From Gammaproteobacteria bacterium (GTDB lineage Bacteria > Pseudomonadota > Gammaproteobacteria > Steroidobacterales > Rariloculaceae): 64,000 nt of DNA. Position numbers and translations under genes: made by a program. The DNA is taken from assembly GCA_036381015.1 (NCBI GenBank), contig DASVDR010000029.1, forward strand, positions 160,676 to 224,675, written 5' to 3'. Below are positions 52,357 to 57,681 of this stretch, piece after piece; positions within the stretch are counted from its first letter, which is position 1, and the number at the start of each line of letters is the position of its first letter. A model generated the notes under the pieces. The model did no database searches. It was given only the letters and a program-made list of their open reading frames with translations, and was not told the origin of the DNA.

Positions 52357-53712
52357 ATGAGCCTGTTGCTCGATCTCGGTTATTCGATCGCCCTGCTGCT
52401 CGCGTCGCCGTGGATTCTCTACCGGCTGCTGCGCACGGGCGGATGGCGCGGCTTCTCGTCGCGGTTCGGGTTCGGGCTCGGCGAGCCGGCTTCGGGCTCG
52501 ATATGGCTGCACGGCTCCTCGGCCGGCGAGGTCTCGTTGCTGAAGCCTCTCGTCGCGATGCTCGAGGCCGACCGGCCGGGCGTGCCGCTGATCGTCTCGA
52601 CCTATACGACGACGGGGCTCGCGGCGGCACGCAAGGCCTATCCGCGTCACCGCGTGACGCTGTTTCCGTTCGATCTTTCGGTCGTCGTTCGGCGCTTTCT
52701 CGAGCGCTTCGATCCCCGCATCGTCGTGATCGTCGAGTCGGAGTTCTGGCCGAACTTCCTTCTCGCGGCCGAGGCGCGCGGCGTGCCCGTCGTCGTGCTG
52801 AACGGCAAGATGTCGGAGAAGTCCTGCCGCGCGTACGCGCGGACCGGCGTGCTGCGGCGCGCGCTTCGCAGTGTCGCGCTCGTCGCGGTGCAAAGCGGCG
52901 AGCATGCGGAGCGGCTGCGCCGTCTGGGCGTCGCCCCGGAGCGCCTTCACGTCACCGGTAACATGAAATACGACCTCGCGCACACGGGCGCGGCGGACCA
53001 GTCGCGGCGCCGTCTGCGCGAGCGTCTCGGCTATGCGCCGGAGGATGTCGTCGTGATCGGCGGCAGTCTTCATCCGGGCGAGCACGAGGCCCTGCTCCGC
53101 GCCTTCAAGGCGCTCGACCCGGAGCGGCGCGCCGCCCTGATCGTCGTGCCGCGCTACCCGGAGGACGCCTCGGACGTGGAGCAGCACCTCGCGGCCGAAG
53201 GCCTGCGCGCGGTGCGCAAGACGCTGCTCGACTCCGGGGCCTGCCCCGCGCCCGGGCGGGGCGCCGTGCTCGTCGTCGACACCGTGGGCGAGCTCGGACT
53301 TCTCTACGCCGCGGCCGACGTCGCCTTCGTCGGCGGGAGCCTGTTCTATCGCGGCAGCAACAAGGGGGGCCACAACCTGATGGAGCCTGCCGTCCTCGGC
53401 GTGCCCGTTTTGTTCGGTCCGTACAACTTCAGCTTCAAGGAGACCGTCGAGGATCTGCTGCGGCACGACGCCGGCCTCCTGGTGCGGAACGCGGACGAGC
53501 TCTCCGCGGCGATCGCGGAGCTCGTCGCCGACGGCGAGCGAAGAAGGCGGCTCGGCGAGCGCGGTAAGCGCGTCGTTCTCGACGGGCAAGGCGCGACGCG
53601 GCGAAACTATGCGTTGCTGTCGCACATCATCGACGGTAACGGGCCGCGCTTGCAGGCCCCCGGCTTTGAACGCACAATGCCGCGAGCGAGCGGCCACCTG
53701 GATTCCCGATGA
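52357..53712 (+). CDS. waaA: Kdo transferase, divergent copy 1
   Basis: A 451-residue 3-deoxy-D-manno-octulosonic acid transferase, family GT30, adding Kdo from CMP-Kdo to lipid A precursor. One N-terminal membrane anchor; HGSSAGEVS contains the catalytic glutamate E58; ESEFWPNF, NGKMSEKS, VTGNMKYD, GSLHPGEHEALL, VVDTVGELGLLYAAADVAFVGGS and GHNLMEPA follow. The segment HGSSAGE differs from the canonical HAVSVGE found in the second copy at 56365. Its stop overlaps kdsA by four bases, opening the Kdo operon. Confidence 0.9.
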   Translation: MSLLLDLGYSIALLLASPWILYRLLRTGGWRGFSSRFGFGLGEPASGSIWLHGSSAGEVSLLKPLVAMLEADRPGVPLIVSTYTTTGLAAARKAYPRHRVTLFPFDLSVVVRRFLERFDPRIVVIVESEFWPNFLLAAEARGVPVVVLNGKMSEKSCRAYARTGVLRRALRSVALVAVQSGEHAERLRRLGVAPERLHVTGNMKYDLAHTGAADQSRRRLRERLGYAPEDVVVIGGSLHPGEHEALLRAFKALDPERRAALIVVPRYPEDASDVEQHLAAEGLRAVRKTLLDSGACPAPGRGAVLVVDTVGELGLLYAAADVAFVGGSLFYRGSNKGGHNLMEPAVLGVPVLFGPYNFSFKETVEDLLRHDAGLLVRNADELSAAIAELVADGERRRRLGERGKRVVLDGQGATRRNYALLSHIIDGNGPRLQAPGFERTMPRASGHLDSR

Positions 53713-54542
53713 GCGAAAAGCACGTATTTGTCGGCGACATAGACTGCGGATCCGATGAGCTTTTCTTGATCTCGGGGCCGTGCGTCATCGAGCACGAACC
53801 GTTGATGATGCGCACCGCCGAGCGCCTCAAGGGCATCGCGGCGGAGCTCGGTCTGCCGCTCATCTTCAAGTCGTCGTTCTCGAAGGACAACCGCAGCTCG
53901 CTCGACTACTACCAGGGCCCGGGCCTCGAGGCCGGATTGAGAACGCTCGAGAAGATCAAGCGCGAGTTCGAGCTGCCGATCCTCACCGACATCCACTATC
54001 CGTCGCAGGCGGCGCCGGCTGCCGAGGTCGTCGACGTCCTCCAGATTCCGGCCTACCTCTGCATGCAGACCGAGCTCGTCGTCGCCGCCGCGAAGACCGG
54101 CGCCGTGATCAATATCAAGCACGGCCAGTTCATCGCCCCGGACAACATGGCGAAGCCCGTGCAGAAGATCGAGGCATCCGGCAACGACCGCATCATCCTC
54201 ACCGAGCGCGGCTACACGTTCGGGTACAACGACCTCGTGGTCGATCCGCGCAGCTTTTATCTGCTCGCGCAGACCGGCTATCCGGTCGTCTTCGACATCA
54301 CGCACACGATCAGGAAGTACGGCATCCCCAGCAAGGATCCGCGCGGCGGCACGCGCGAGTTCTTGACCGTGCTCGCACGGGCCGGCGTGGCCGCCGGCGT
54401 CGACGGCATCTTCATCGAGGCGCACCCGAACCCGCCCGAGGCGCTCTGCGATGCGGCCAGCCAATACGAGCTGGACCATCTCGCCGACTTCGTGCGGCCG
54501 CTGCTCGACATTCACGACATCGTTCGCTCTCGGGCGCATTGA
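53709..54542 (+). CDS. kdsA: 3-deoxy-8-phosphooctulonate synthase
   Basis: A 277-residue class I aldolase-like enzyme condensing PEP with arabinose 5-phosphate to Kdo 8-phosphate. LISGPCVIEHE, FKSSFSKDNRSS, GPGLEAGLRTLEKIK, TDIHYPSQAAPAA, DVLQIPAYLCMQTELV, NIKHGQFIAPDNM, LTERGYTFGYNDLVVD, FDITHTIRKYG and IFIEAHPNPPEALCD are diagnostic. It overlaps waaA copy 1 by four bases (ATGA) and is followed seven bases later by the transaldolase-CBS gene. Confidence 0.96.
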   Translation: MSEKHVFVGDIDCGSDELFLISGPCVIEHEPLMMRTAERLKGIAAELGLPLIFKSSFSKDNRSSLDYYQGPGLEAGLRTLEKIKREFELPILTDIHYPSQAAPAAEVVDVLQIPAYLCMQTELVVAAAKTGAVINIKHGQFIAPDNMAKPVQKIEASGNDRIILTERGYTFGYNDLVVDPRSFYLLAQTGYPVVFDITHTIRKYGIPSKDPRGGTREFLTVLARAGVAAGVDGIFIEAHPNPPEALCDAASQYELDHLADFVRPLLDIHDIVRSRAH

Positions 54543-54549
54543 GACCTTC

Positions 54550-55584
54550 ATGGACCTTTATCTCGACTCCGTAGATTTCAAGGAAATCGAAGCGGCTTTC
54601 GATTTCGGCTTCGTAAAGGGGCTGACGACGACGCCGACGTTCATGCACCGTCACGGCATCACCGACATCGACGGCGCGATCGTGAAGCTCTCCGGGATGG
54701 TGCCGGAGCTTCAAGTCGAGGCCCTCGGCGATACGCCCGATGCGATCGTCGCCGAGGCCGAGCGAATTCTCGGGCTGGGGCTCGAGCGCGAGCCCGTGTT
54801 CAAGGTGCCGATCTCGAACGCCGGCGTGAAGGCGTGCCAGCGGCTGACGAACCGCGGCCACCGCGTGAACGTGCATCTGATCTACACGTTGAATCAGGCG
54901 TACATGGCGATGGAGGCCGGCGCCGCGTTCGTCTGCCCGCTCGCCGGGCGCCTCCAGGATCAGGGCCACGACGCGATCAAGCTGTTCGAGCAGTGCGTCG
55001 AGGTCGTCGAGGTGCACGGCTACGACACGAAGGTCATGTTCTCTTCCGTGCGCCATGCCGAGCACGTGCGCCAGGCGCTGCTCGCCGGCGTGCACGTCTG
55101 CACGGTGCCGTTCCTCGTGATGCAGCACCTCTGCGACAACTCGCTGACCGAGGTCGGCACGGCCCAGTTCAGGGAGCACACGCAGCTCATGACGGTGAAG
55201 GTCAAGGATCTGATTCGGGAGGAGAATCCGGTCTGCTCGCCGTCGGACACGCTGACTGCGGCGATGGTCGGCATGACGCAATCGCGCCTCGGCGCCGTCA
55301 CCGTCGTCGACGAGTCGGGCGCCGTCGCGGGGGTCTTCACCGACGGCGACCTGCGCCGCCGCCTGCAGAAGGACGGCCCGTCGATTCTCGACAAGACGCT
55401 CGGCCAGATCGGCTTCACGAAGAGCCCGGTCACGATCGGCAAGGAAAGCCTGTTGAACGAGGCGGTGAAGCTCTTCAAGGAGTTCCAGGTCGACAGCATC
55501 GTCGTCGTCGACGACGAGCGGCCCGCCGGCATCCTCGACATTCAGGATCTCGTGCGCCTCGGCCTGCTCGGTCCGCAGCGCTAA
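54550..55584 (+). CDS. Transaldolase/FSA-like protein fused to a CBS pair
   Basis: A 344-residue fusion. Residues 1-~205 resemble the short transaldolase/fructose-6-phosphate aldolase (TalC/FSA) barrel: MDLYLDS with D6, GLTTTPT (FSA has TTNPS, so Asn28 is Thr) and the Schiff-base lysine K85 in VFKVPISNAG. PLAGRLQDQG is where FSA has PYVxRxDAQG, so Tyr131 is replaced. Residues ~215-340 hold two CBS motifs (PVCSPSDTLTAAMVGM...GVFTDGDLRRR and SPVTIGKESLLNEAVKL...GILDIQDLVRLGL), arranged like the CBS pair of KdsD. Located between kdsA and a kdsC-like gene, where an arabinose-5-phosphate source is expected. Function is inference. Confidence 0.85.
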   Translation: MDLYLDSVDFKEIEAAFDFGFVKGLTTTPTFMHRHGITDIDGAIVKLSGMVPELQVEALGDTPDAIVAEAERILGLGLEREPVFKVPISNAGVKACQRLTNRGHRVNVHLIYTLNQAYMAMEAGAAFVCPLAGRLQDQGHDAIKLFEQCVEVVEVHGYDTKVMFSSVRHAEHVRQALLAGVHVCTVPFLVMQHLCDNSLTEVGTAQFREHTQLMTVKVKDLIREENPVCSPSDTLTAAMVGMTQSRLGAVTVVDESGAVAGVFTDGDLRRRLQKDGPSILDKTLGQIGFTKSPVTIGKESLLNEAVKLFKEFQVDSIVVVDDERPAGILDIQDLVRLGLLGPQR

Positions 55585-55588
55585 CCCA

Positions 55589-55653
55589 AAAAGGTGTCAG
55601 ACACCTTTTCCGGCCCGAGCCCTTCGTCGAGGAAAAGGTGTCCGACACCTTTT
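55589..55653. repeat. Pair of AAAAGGTGTC-N-GACACCTTTT palindromes
   Basis: Two perfect 10-base-arm palindromes (55589-55609, centre A; 55633-55653, centre C) lie 44 bases apart between the transaldolase-CBS and kdsC-like genes. The second is followed by extra T residues and could attenuate transcription. The GGTGTCxGACACC core is a dispersed REP-like element in many proteobacterial genomes. It is the only break in the otherwise tightly packed operon. Confidence 0.8.
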
Positions 55654-55660
55654 TTTCGTG

Positions 55661-56368
55661 ATGCCATCGGTAAGTGACGTGCAGACGGCGTTCGCGGCGC
55701 TCGGCGGCGTGTTTCTGACGCCGGCCGCGGCGCTCGCGGAGCGGGCCGCGGCCGCGCGCGGAATCGTCTTCGACTGGGACGGCGTCTTCAACACGGGCGC
55801 GAAGGGCGACGGCGGCGCGAGCGGCTTCAGCGAAGCGGACTCGATGGGCGTCAATTTGCTGCGGTTCGCGATGTGGCGGGCGCATGCCGGGCTGCCGATC
55901 GCCGCGATCATCACCGGCGAGGAGAACCGGGGCGCTGCCGCGTTCGCGGCGCGCGAGCACTTTCACGTGCTCTACACCGGCGTCAAGAACAAGCCCGACG
56001 CGCTCGACGCGCTCTGCGCCGAGCACGGCCTGCCGCCGGAACGTCTGATCGCGGTATTCGACGACGTGAACGATCTCGCGATGGCCGCCCGCTGCGGCGT
56101 CAGGATCCTCGTGAGGCGAGACTCGAGCCCGCTGCTGCACGAGCACGTCGCGCGGCGCGGCCTCGCGGACTACGTGACCGCGGCGCCCCCCGAGCGCCAC
56201 GCGGTGCGTGAGGCCGCCGAGCTTCTGCTCGGGCTCACCGGCGAGTTCGAGCGGGCCGTGGACTCGCGTGTCGCATGGGACGAGGATTACCGGCGCTACT
56301 TCGCGGCTCGCCAGGCCGTGGAGACGCGCTTCGAGTCCATGCCGCTCCAAGGGAGAGCCCGCGAGTGA
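55661..56368 (+). CDS. kdsC: KdsC-like HAD phosphatase
   Basis: A 235-residue HAD-superfamily phosphatase expected to remove the phosphate from Kdo 8-phosphate or a related acid. GIVFDWDGVFNTG carries the nucleophile D38 and acid/base D40 (KdsC has DVDGVLTDG), AAIITGEENRG the Thr/Ser motif, VKNKPDALDAL the lysine and AVFDDVNDLAMA the second Asp pair. ADYVTAAPPERHAVREAAELL matches the KdsC tail. It is longer and more divergent than typical KdsC (~170-190), with N- and C-terminal extensions, so a different 8-phospho substrate is possible. GTG 55658 is an alternative start. Confidence 0.82.
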   Translation: MPSVSDVQTAFAALGGVFLTPAAALAERAAAARGIVFDWDGVFNTGAKGDGGASGFSEADSMGVNLLRFAMWRAHAGLPIAAIITGEENRGAAAFAAREHFHVLYTGVKNKPDALDALCAEHGLPPERLIAVFDDVNDLAMAARCGVRILVRRDSSPLLHEHVARRGLADYVTAAPPERHAVREAAELLLGLTGEFERAVDSRVAWDEDYRRYFAARQAVETRFESMPLQGRARE

Positions 56369-57681
56369 CCGTCTGGTCGGTCGCCGCCTATCTCCTGCTC
56401 CCCTACGCGCTGTGGAATCTGATCTGGCGCGGACTGCGCTACCGCCCCTATTGGAACCGCTGGCCCGAGCGCTTCGGCTTCGTCGAGCCGGTGCCGGGAC
56501 GGCGGGTAATCTGGGTGCACGCCGTGTCGGTCGGCGAGGTGCGCTCGTCCGCGGCCCTGATCGTCGCGCTCGACGAGCGCTATCCCGAGCACCGCATCCA
56601 CGTGACGACGATGACGCCCACGGGGTCCGAGCAGGTGCGGGAGCTCTTCGGCGAGCGCGTGAGCCACTCGTACGTCCCGTACGACCTGCCGGACGCCGTG
56701 CATCGTTTCCTCGACCGCATCCGGCCCGATCTCGCCGTCATCGCGGAGACCGAGTTCTGGCCGAACATTTTCGCCGCGTGCCGGCAGCGGGGCATTCCGC
56801 TCTTCCTCGTGAACGTGCGCGTGTCACAGGCATCGCTACGGGGCTATCTCCGCGCGCCGCGGACGACGCGCAGGATGCTCGAGAACGCGGACCTGATCTG
56901 CCCGCAGACCGAGGTCGACGCCGAGCGGCTGCGCCTGCTCGGCGCGCCCGCCGAGCGAATCCACGTGACCGGAAACCTCAAGTTCGACGTCGAGCTGCCG
57001 CAGAGCCTTCTGCAAGAAGGCGCGGCCGTGCGGCAGCAGTGGGGCCGAGATCGGCCGGTATGGATCGCGGCGAGCACGCACGCGGGCGAGGAGGCGCAGG
57101 TCCTCGACGCCTTCGCGAAGCTGCGGCAGACGCACCCCGACTTGCTGCTCGCCCTCGTGCCGCGCCATCCGGAGCGCTTCGACGGCGTGGAGCGCCTCTG
57201 CGAGCGCCGCGGGTACGAGATCGCGCTCCGCAGCCTCGCGCACCGGGAGCTCGGGGCGGAGGTGGACATCGTCGTCGGCGACACGATGGGAGAGCTTCAG
57301 CGGCTCTATGCCGCTTCCGACGTCGCGTTCGTCGGCGGCAGCCTCGTACGCCACGGCGGCCAGAACATTCTCGAGGCCTGCGCCGTGCGCGTGCCCGTGA
57401 TCTTCGGACCGCACATGTTTCATTTCGAGGAGATCAGCCGGCTCGCGCTCGAACGCGGCGCCGCGCGGCAGGTCGCCGACGCGGACGAGCTTGCCGACGC
57501 CGTCGCGCTCTTCCTCGACCGGCCCGATCTGCGGCGCGCCGCCGGCGACGCCGCGCACAGCCTGATGGAGGACAATCACGGTGCGCTGCAGCGCACGCTG
57601 CGGCTGATGGACGAGACCCTCGGGCGTGTCGGCTTCGGCGTCGACCCGGCTTTCCGGCAACCCGCCGAAAAGGCGCCTTGA
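56365..57681 (+). CDS. waaA: Kdo transferase, canonical copy 2
   Basis: A 438-residue GT30 Kdo transferase closely following the enterobacterial WaaA pattern: VIWVHAVSVGEVRSS with E58, TTMTPTGSEQV, VPYDLPDAVHRFLDRI, IAETEFWPNIFAACRQRGIP, VNVRVSQASLRGY, VTGNLKFDVELP, WIAASTHAGEE, LVPRHPERFD, VVGDTMGELQRLYAASDVAFVGGS and GQNILEACA. GTG start at 56365 overlaps the kdsC-like stop (GTGA). A second, divergent waaA opens the same operon, which is unusual. Its stop overlaps the nuclease start (TGATG). Confidence 0.93.
   Translation: MTVWSVAAYLLLPYALWNLIWRGLRYRPYWNRWPERFGFVEPVPGRRVIWVHAVSVGEVRSSAALIVALDERYPEHRIHVTTMTPTGSEQVRELFGERVSHSYVPYDLPDAVHRFLDRIRPDLAVIAETEFWPNIFAACRQRGIPLFLVNVRVSQASLRGYLRAPRTTRRMLENADLICPQTEVDAERLRLLGAPAERIHVTGNLKFDVELPQSLLQEGAAVRQQWGRDRPVWIAASTHAGEEAQVLDAFAKLRQTHPDLLLALVPRHPERFDGVERLCERRGYEIALRSLAHRELGAEVDIVVGDTMGELQRLYAASDVAFVGGSLVRHGGQNILEACAVRVPVIFGPHMFHFEEISRLALERGAARQVADADELADAVALFLDRPDLRRAAGDAAHSLMEDNHGALQRTLRLMDETLGRVGFGVDPAFRQPAEKAP

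Follow-up and report, generated by a model that had tools for sequence, protein, structure and literature searches.

A transaldolase-CBS fusion in the KdsD position of a candidate second module for Kdo synthesis

Introduction

The sugar 3-deoxy-D-manno-oct-2-ulosonic acid (Kdo) anchors lipopolysaccharide (LPS), a glycolipid of the outer membrane, and is nearly universal in the LPS of Gram-negative bacteria. The isomerase KdsD, which makes its five-carbon precursor, is usually drawn as the obligatory first step of its synthesis. What, then, makes the first intermediate when a Kdo operon carries a protein of another fold in the place of KdsD? This question is raised by a 64,000-nucleotide stretch of DNA (the window; contig DASVDR010000029.1 of assembly GCA_036381015.1, positions 160,676 to 224,675, forward strand) from a gammaproteobacterium of the family Rariloculaceae. 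Five genes lie head to tail at window positions 52357 to 57681, identified by Pfam and NCBIfam as waaA, kdsA, a TAL_FSA+CBS+CBS fusion, a KdsC-like phosphatase of the haloacid dehalogenase (HAD) family, and a second waaA. A first-pass annotation, made from the letters of this DNA alone, had proposed that the transaldolase-CBS fusion replaces KdsD.

The genome comparisons described here favor, slightly, a second, non-orthologous Kdo module, in which the fusion would supply a partner KdsA with arabinose 5-phosphate (A5P) made through lysine-based aldol chemistry. Within this reading, the replacement of KdsA-KdsD-KdsC by a module with the fusion is well supported. Searches of the open-access literature by word matching, with subscription journals and preprints largely outside their reach, did not turn up any description of a transaldolase-CBS protein that acts in Kdo synthesis; one paper outlines the route through KdsD and KdsA without further detail (PMC9478572).

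Results

Distribution of the fusion and KdsD

The source genome and 58 relatives were each searched for the fusion, KdsD, KdsC, KdsB, KdsA, and TAL_FSA proteins. The fusion was present in 19 of the 59 genomes, and KdsD, a SIS-CBS protein, scored over its cut-off in 43. Only three genomes held both (G287, G292, and G295) and none held neither, giving a Fisher P value of 9e-12 with kinship ignored. KdsC followed KdsD: it was over cut-off in 41 genomes, which are the KdsD genomes minus G305 and G318, and in none of the 16 fusion-only genomes. KdsB was over cut-off in 55 genomes, including all 16 fusion-only ones. KdsA was over cut-off in 57, its gene adjoined the fusion in all 19 fusion genomes, and 13 of the 16 fusion-only genomes had no KdsA besides this linked one. 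In fusion genomes of this set, special versions of KdsA and the phosphatase stand in for the usual ones as well, a point missed by the first-pass annotation, and because these are swapped and KdsB is not, the whole module appears to have been exchanged. Half of the fusion-only genomes (8 of 16) reach at least 90% completeness with no more than 5% contamination, which makes the absences more than a matter of gaps.

The source genome yielded no SIS-CBS protein; KdsD models match CBS parts alone there and match the fusion best. Its proteins with the SIS domain (PF01380) are two tandem-SIS proteins of GlmS size (open frames of 621 and 614 aa) and one 192-aa single-SIS protein, which may be DiaA- or GmhA-like. 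Given these three proteins and the CBS-only KdsD matches, a hidden KdsD elsewhere in this genome was rejected as an explanation. The source genome is a 3.49-Mb draft that is 95.7% complete, so the absence of KdsD is unproven by that genome alone. Across the class the fusion is rare: of 274 genomes drawn, two carry it, one of them the source genome, with G113 (29% identity, barrel only) counted as carrying an ordinary TalC.

TAL_FSA matches of any kind were found in 32 of the 59 genomes. Among the 40 genomes without the fusion, 27 had none, which suggests that much of the order runs the pentose phosphate pathway without a transaldolase.

The barrel and the CBS pair

Pfam assigns the fusion a TAL_FSA domain and no SIS domain. 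The barrel scores 115.3 bits against PF00923 (curated cut-off, 27) and 140.6 bits against the strict fructose-6-phosphate aldolase (FSA) model TIGR00875, under its cut-off of 245.95. An AlphaFold model of the fusion (predicted local distance difference test score, 92.7; predicted template modeling [TM] score, 0.70) finds the transaldolases 1vpx and 3r8r as best Foldseek matches, with a TM score of about 0.9 of the target and 30% identity.

Active-site residues were compared in 58 aligned fusion sequences that are 56 to 90% identical to that of the window. Asp6, Thr26, Glu57, Lys85, Arg134, Ser166, and Arg168 are invariant, the two arginines presumably acting at the substrate phosphate. The first-pass annotation had described a kept Schiff-base lysine, Lys85, and the loss of Asn28 and Tyr131 of FSA; both observations hold in 58/58 sequences, with Thr28 in place of Asn and Leu131 in place of Tyr (Phe in TalC-type transaldolases). 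A third pocket replacement, absent from that list, is His109, also in 58/58, which takes the place of Thr in the TalC-type motif NVTLIF. With three pocket residues unlike those of FSA and transaldolase, the acceptor sugar may differ. FSA/TalC proteins (TIGR00875; 3r8r, 1vpx, and 1l6w) thus share the fold, Lys85, Asp6, Ser166, and Arg168 with the fusion, which differs from them in its score below the family cut-off, in Thr28, His109, and Leu131, in its CBS pair, and in its kds operon.

Among solved structures, 4o9k is the best relative of the CBS pair in sequence as well as in fold; it is the corresponding pair from an arabinose 5-phosphate isomerase, with a ligand that we take to be CMP-Kdo. 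The pair scores 73.9 bits to a KdsD, compared to 43.1 bits to the best other CBS protein of the genome, and FTDGD.RR is common to the pair and KdsD; TIGR00393, the KdsD/GutQ/KpsF model, matches this part of the fusion alone (residues 214 to 327). By these sequence and fold comparisons the CBS pair is of the KdsD type. Nucleotide sensing, as first proposed for the CBS domains, gives way to a narrower role, since 4o9k and the score difference make a KdsD-type sensor more likely than a general nucleotide sensor. An open-access search for literature joining CBS domains, CMP-Kdo, and the isomerase found none.

The fusion therefore resembles KdsD/GutQ/KpsF in its type of CBS pair and, to judge from its operon and its nearly exclusive distribution, in its pathway position. 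Those proteins have a SIS domain and the fusion a TIM-barrel transaldolase, so the chemistry must differ.

A variant KdsA

KdsA residues were compared in Aquifex numbering between 73 variant rows, with identical sequences merged, and 26 canonical rows, which were not merged (L202 and L208 come from one genome). The variant remains within the metal-dependent KdsA family: it scores over the TIGR01362 cut-off, and all metal and phosphoenolpyruvate (PEP) residues are intact in 73/73 rows, with Cys11, Lys41, Lys46, Asn48, Arg49, Ser50, Lys124, Arg154, His185, Glu222, and Asp233 kept throughout. It differs at positions 47, 84, 106, 125, 188, and 190. Arg106, found in 26/26 canonical rows, is Met in 73/73 variants; Gln188 is Arg, Pro190 is Tyr, and Ala47 is Asp, beside the NRSS motif, each in 73/73; Lys125 is His in 71/73, and Glu84 is Tyr in 67/73. 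A one-residue insertion follows position 190 in all 73, further switches occur at 130, 167, and 211, and Ser197 (212 in variant numbering) is Lys or Arg in 59/73. In the window's KdsA the equivalents of 106, 188, 125, and 47 are Met119, Arg202, His138, and Asp60.

We assume that Arg106 contacts the phosphate of A5P. According to the alignment, crystals of the 1t8x series carry a mutation to Gly at this position. No source for the role of Arg106 was found in the open-access literature, including the accessible parts of PMC6650799, PMC3052366, and PMC10487747. In the part available, the first of these assigns the PEP end of an inhibitor to Neisseria meningitidis Lys133/Arg163 and the other phosphate to Asn57/Arg58, and does not name the equivalent of Arg106 (PMC6650799).

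On another contig (G000 C20, 88661 to 89428; L134) the source genome encodes a second KdsA, which is canonical and has every textbook residue. All three genomes of the window's genus (G000, G274, and G275) keep such a canonical KdsA, and neither KdsD nor KdsC was found in them. The ratio of nonsynonymous to synonymous substitution rates was 0.23 to 0.33 for the canonical KdsA in three pairs and 0.10 for the variant in one pair; the canonical copy is under purifying selection, weaker than that on the variant. This KdsA would need a source of A5P, and because it persists under selection without KdsD, A5P is probably present.

Phosphatase, KdsB, and WaaA

The best NCBIfam match of the HAD protein is KdsC (NF007019), at 45.5 bits versus a cut-off of 208; TIGR01670 gives 32.0 versus 106.95. 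Across 54 variants, the catalytic residues shared with KdsC and Kdn-9-phosphate phosphatases are kept in 53 or 54 (Asp38, Asp40, Thr85 [Thr or Ser], Lys111, Asp134, Asp135, and Asp138). Besides falling far below the family cut-offs, the variants differ from 18 KdsC sequences in having replaced Arg78 and Arg86.

KdsB shows the reverse. Comparing 21 sequences from fusion genomes, 3 of which (L111, L119, and L130) come without a KdsD test of the genome, to 19 from KdsD-only genomes, and leaving out the KdsB of G276, no position had a fixed difference at the 80% level. The final product is therefore probably Kdo, and with the enzymes upstream of Kdo altered and the Kdo-activating enzyme not, the pattern points to newly handled intermediates.

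The upstream WaaA (waaA-1) falls under all five WaaA cut-offs that it matched, the best score being 315.5 bits versus 438, which marks it as a divergent copy; it might use a different acceptor. WaaA-type Kdo transferases lie on both sides of the module, in the window and at several other loci, including L069, L072, and L081, all titled Woeseiaceae.

The module in other lineages

Relatives of the fusion are encoded in 533 stretches of genome_contigs. Given this number, and with the fusion in all three genomes of the window's genus, an artifact of a single assembly was ruled out. The best 80 of the 533, at 56 to 90% identity, were analyzed as loci. Their titles name Gammaproteobacteria, Deltaproteobacteria/Desulfobacterales, Bacteroidetes (mostly Cytophagales and relatives), "Candidatus Scalindua," Nitrospira, and a few others, and by record title they include the cultured species Thermonema rossianum DSM 10300, Raineya orbicola, and Thermoflexibacter ruber DSM 9560.

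Fifty genomes, taken from 50 of the 80 loci at E ≤ 1e-12, were searched for KdsD, which was over cut-off in 6 and not in the other 44. By coordinates this set overlaps the 59 genomes in at least four cases (G330/G286, G331/G282, G332/G295, and G333/G277), and G344 coincides with G071. Of these 50 genomes, 28 were examined further, and the variant KdsA, 66 to 82% identical to the window's, occurred in all 28, even when encoded elsewhere in the genome. A second KdsA, 44 to 49% identical, was present in seven of these, six with KdsD and one Scalindua. Fusion with variant KdsA and KdsD with canonical KdsA thus look like two sets that travel separately, the exceptions being the window's genus and one Scalindua. 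The latter, an anammox genome (G359; L152 and L209), has the fusion, a variant KdsA, a canonical-like KdsA, and no KdsD over cut-off. Fusion and KdsD occur together in G332, G335, G338, G346, G349, and G379, as well as in the three genomes named above; G332 and G295 are apparently one genome.

Synteny extends the pattern. A kdsA gene lies directly upstream of the fusion in 53 of the 75 loci with room for it and directly downstream in 2 of 80, a HAD gene follows the fusion in 47 of 75, and both adjoin the fusion in 40 of 80. At non-Bacteroidota loci kdsA is adjacent in 38/40 and the HAD gene in 30/40. Four loci (L111, L112, L119, and L122) have the order waaA-kdsB-kdsA-fusion-HAD, with KdsB assigned by similarity. 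Pairwise distances of the fusion correlate with those of KdsA (r = 0.80, n = 55) and of the HAD protein (r = 0.75, n = 54), values reached in none of 200 permutations; either co-evolution or shared descent would give this, and the test does not separate the two.

Organization of the locus

Coordinates are collected in Table 1. Order, coordinates, and domains match those first annotated, and so does the divergent KdsC-like phosphatase, whose low family score goes with kept catalytic residues. The first two genes overlap by 4 bases, and the second waaA, from its assumed GTG start, overlaps the HAD stop codon. The sole real spacer of the cluster, between the fusion and the HAD gene, bears palindromes, as had been noticed in the first pass: GGTGTCNGACACC matches twice (0.08 expected), at 55593 to 55605 and 55637 to 55649. 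Between 55588 and 55654, the palindromes GGTGTCAGACACC and GGTGTCCGACACC each lie between A and T runs, 31 bases apart. They may be terminator-like or belong to a dispersed repeat. The flanking genes, a GGDEF-EAL protein upstream and an S1/P1 nuclease downstream, look unrelated. The closest named relatives among the matches listed are titled Gammaproteobacteria; in one listing of relatives, the best 120 of 4124, 7999 candidates were scored.

Table 1. Features of the candidate Kdo module in the window
Feature	Position	Strand	Basis
waaA-1, divergent Kdo transferase, 451 aa	52357..53712	+	Glycos_transf_N, E 6.2e-55
Variant kdsA, Kdo-8-phosphate synthase family, 277 aa	53709..54542	+	TIGR01362, 331.8 bits versus cut-off of 314
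Transaldolase/FSA barrel (aa ~1-212) + CBS pair (aa ~214-340)	54550..55584	+	TAL_FSA, E 4.4e-33; CBS, E 6.8e-18 in two stretches
CBS pair of fusion, KdsD type	55189..55581	+	Relatedness by sequence and fold to 4o9k
Intergenic spacer with two palindromes	55585..55660		Sequence
KdsC-like HAD phosphatase variant, 235 aa	55661..56368	+	NF007019, 45.5 bits versus cut-off of 208; start codon assumed
waaA-2, canonical-type Kdo transferase, 438 aa	56365..57681	+	NF004388, 516.3 bits, over 438; GTG start assumed

Discussion

The first-pass proposal that the fusion replaces KdsD holds at the level of genes: no SIS-CBS protein turned up in the source genome, the fusion and KdsD are nearly exclusive in distribution, and linkage to kds genes recurs across groups, more weakly in Bacteroidota. 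Its chemistry is a different matter, and we infer aldol activity from the residues of the barrel. In the favored scheme, Lys85 would hold a C2 or C3 unit as a Schiff base. The barrel would make A5P in one of two ways: by joining glycolaldehyde to glyceraldehyde 3-phosphate, as Escherichia coli FsaA does, or by cleaving an octulose 8-phosphate. Condensation of A5P with PEP would fall to the special KdsA and removal of the phosphate to the HAD enzyme, leaving the last steps to KdsB and WaaA. An end product, probably CMP-Kdo, would be sensed by the CBS pair, which likely derives from a KdsD-like protein and would so throttle the first step. A route by isomerization of ribulose 5-phosphate on Lys85 was rejected by chemical reasoning, since an imine at C2 would not release the aldose.

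Several lines of evidence make A5P the probable product: the fusion fills the KdsD slot and has a KdsD-type sensor, Lys85 is kept together with Arg134 and Arg168, and a canonical KdsA is retained in the window's genus, where KdsD was not found. There is also chemical precedent. FsaA joins glycolaldehyde and glyceraldehyde 3-phosphate to A5P, as given in PMC9947464, and 3upb is, by its title, a solved transaldolase with covalent arabinose 5-phosphate. Comparative genomics offers a parallel in FolB2, a transaldolase-family protein predicted to stand in for the unrelated dihydroneopterin aldolase, with validation pending (PMC1971073); like the fusion it would displace an unrelated enzyme, in this case in the folate pathway, and the accessible part of that source does not mention CBS domains.

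A number of observations weigh against A5P as the product and against the module as a whole. Plain A5P would suit canonical KdsA and KdsC, yet the acceptor side of KdsA (Arg106, Gln188, Lys125, Glu84, and Ala47) and Arg78/Arg86 of the phosphatase are changed throughout. If the product is A5P, these changes can be explained only as a hand-off between partners, which is why another acceptor or free arabinose remain alternatives. The replacement of Asn28, Thr109, and Tyr131 in every aligned barrel leaves even aldol activity unproven, and neither glycolaldehyde nor octulose phosphate could be traced to a source. Both modules occur in 3/59 and 6/50 genomes (one shared), where they would be redundant if both make A5P. 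The fusion is the sole TAL_FSA protein in 14 of 19 fusion genomes and could double as a general transaldolase. All 19 belong to one family, so that these genomes are not independent and the switch may be a single event, and the completeness of the 50 titled fusion genomes is not stated. Finally, at loci grouped as Bacteroidota by record title (37 of 80), kdsA adjoins the fusion in only 15/35 and the HAD gene in 17/35.

These objections lead most directly to a module that uses an acceptor other than A5P, reaching Kdo via other intermediates or making a Kdo analogue; the barrel would produce another aldose phosphate, with KdsA and the phosphatase tuned to it. The variant KdsA accompanies the fusion in 19/19 and 28/28 genomes, it is changed on the acceptor side but at none of the PEP and metal residues in 73/73 rows, the phosphatase is replaced too, the barrel pocket is altered, and some genomes hold both modules. 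We still consider this explanation unlikely. KdsB has no fixed difference and WaaA genes are present, which argues for a final sugar that is Kdo or very close to it, and the Arg202 of KdsA with Lys or Arg at 212 (59/73) may just rebuild a phosphate site for A5P. A wider form of the idea can be put forward tentatively: a complete second Kdo route of Gram-negative lineages, found under titles of at least four phyla and in some genomes beside the first, with a first enzyme of another family and with intermediates of its own, in which a CBS-gated transaldolase would build a non-A5P acceptor for a re-tooled KdsA and phosphatase and meet the textbook route only at KdsB.

Dephosphorylation could instead come first, with the HAD enzyme freeing D-arabinose from A5P made by the barrel and the variant KdsA joining it to PEP to give Kdo directly. 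The loss of Arg106, the presumed contact of the A5P phosphate and the position mutated in the 1t8x series, fits this order, as do the Asp beside NRSS, the lost KdsC-type arginines, the unchanged KdsB, and the barrel's retention of Arg134 and Arg168, the presumed phosphate-binding residues. This order is nonetheless improbable: Asn48, Arg49, and Ser50 are kept in 73/73 rows and Arg202 has been gained, suggesting that phosphate is still bound, and we know of no KdsA that uses free arabinose.

Less probable again is an ordinary pentose-phosphate transaldolase that happens to lie beside LPS genes, with A5P supplied by an isomerase of an unfamiliar kind. The fold is nearest to transaldolases, and most fusion genomes have no other TAL_FSA protein. 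However, the 27 fusion-less relatives without TAL_FSA, and the two other TAL_FSA proteins of the source genome, speak against it, and nothing in this explanation accounts for the loss of KdsD and KdsC, the KdsD-type CBS pair, or the invariant Thr28, His109, and Leu131. The related idea that the fusion is the missing general transaldolase of the order was rejected because so many relatives lack TAL_FSA. A dead barrel that merely regulates KdsA and carries the CBS sensor would fit the three replaced pocket residues and is very improbable, since a barrel without activity would hardly keep Lys85, Asp6, Glu57, Ser166, Arg134, and Arg168 in all of 58 sequences that are 56 to 90% identical to the window's.

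We thus return to a second Kdo module in which the fusion supplies A5P. Kdo synthesis by a different first enzyme with re-tooled partners is what we infer from the comparative evidence, and the cultured species among the carriers make the proposal directly testable. If it is true, seemingly missing kdsD genes would be explained, the transaldolase family would gain a function, and a CBS sensor would have moved from an isomerase to an aldolase. A module that works without KdsD, KdsC, and canonical KdsA would rewrite the first step of Kdo synthesis in many lineages.

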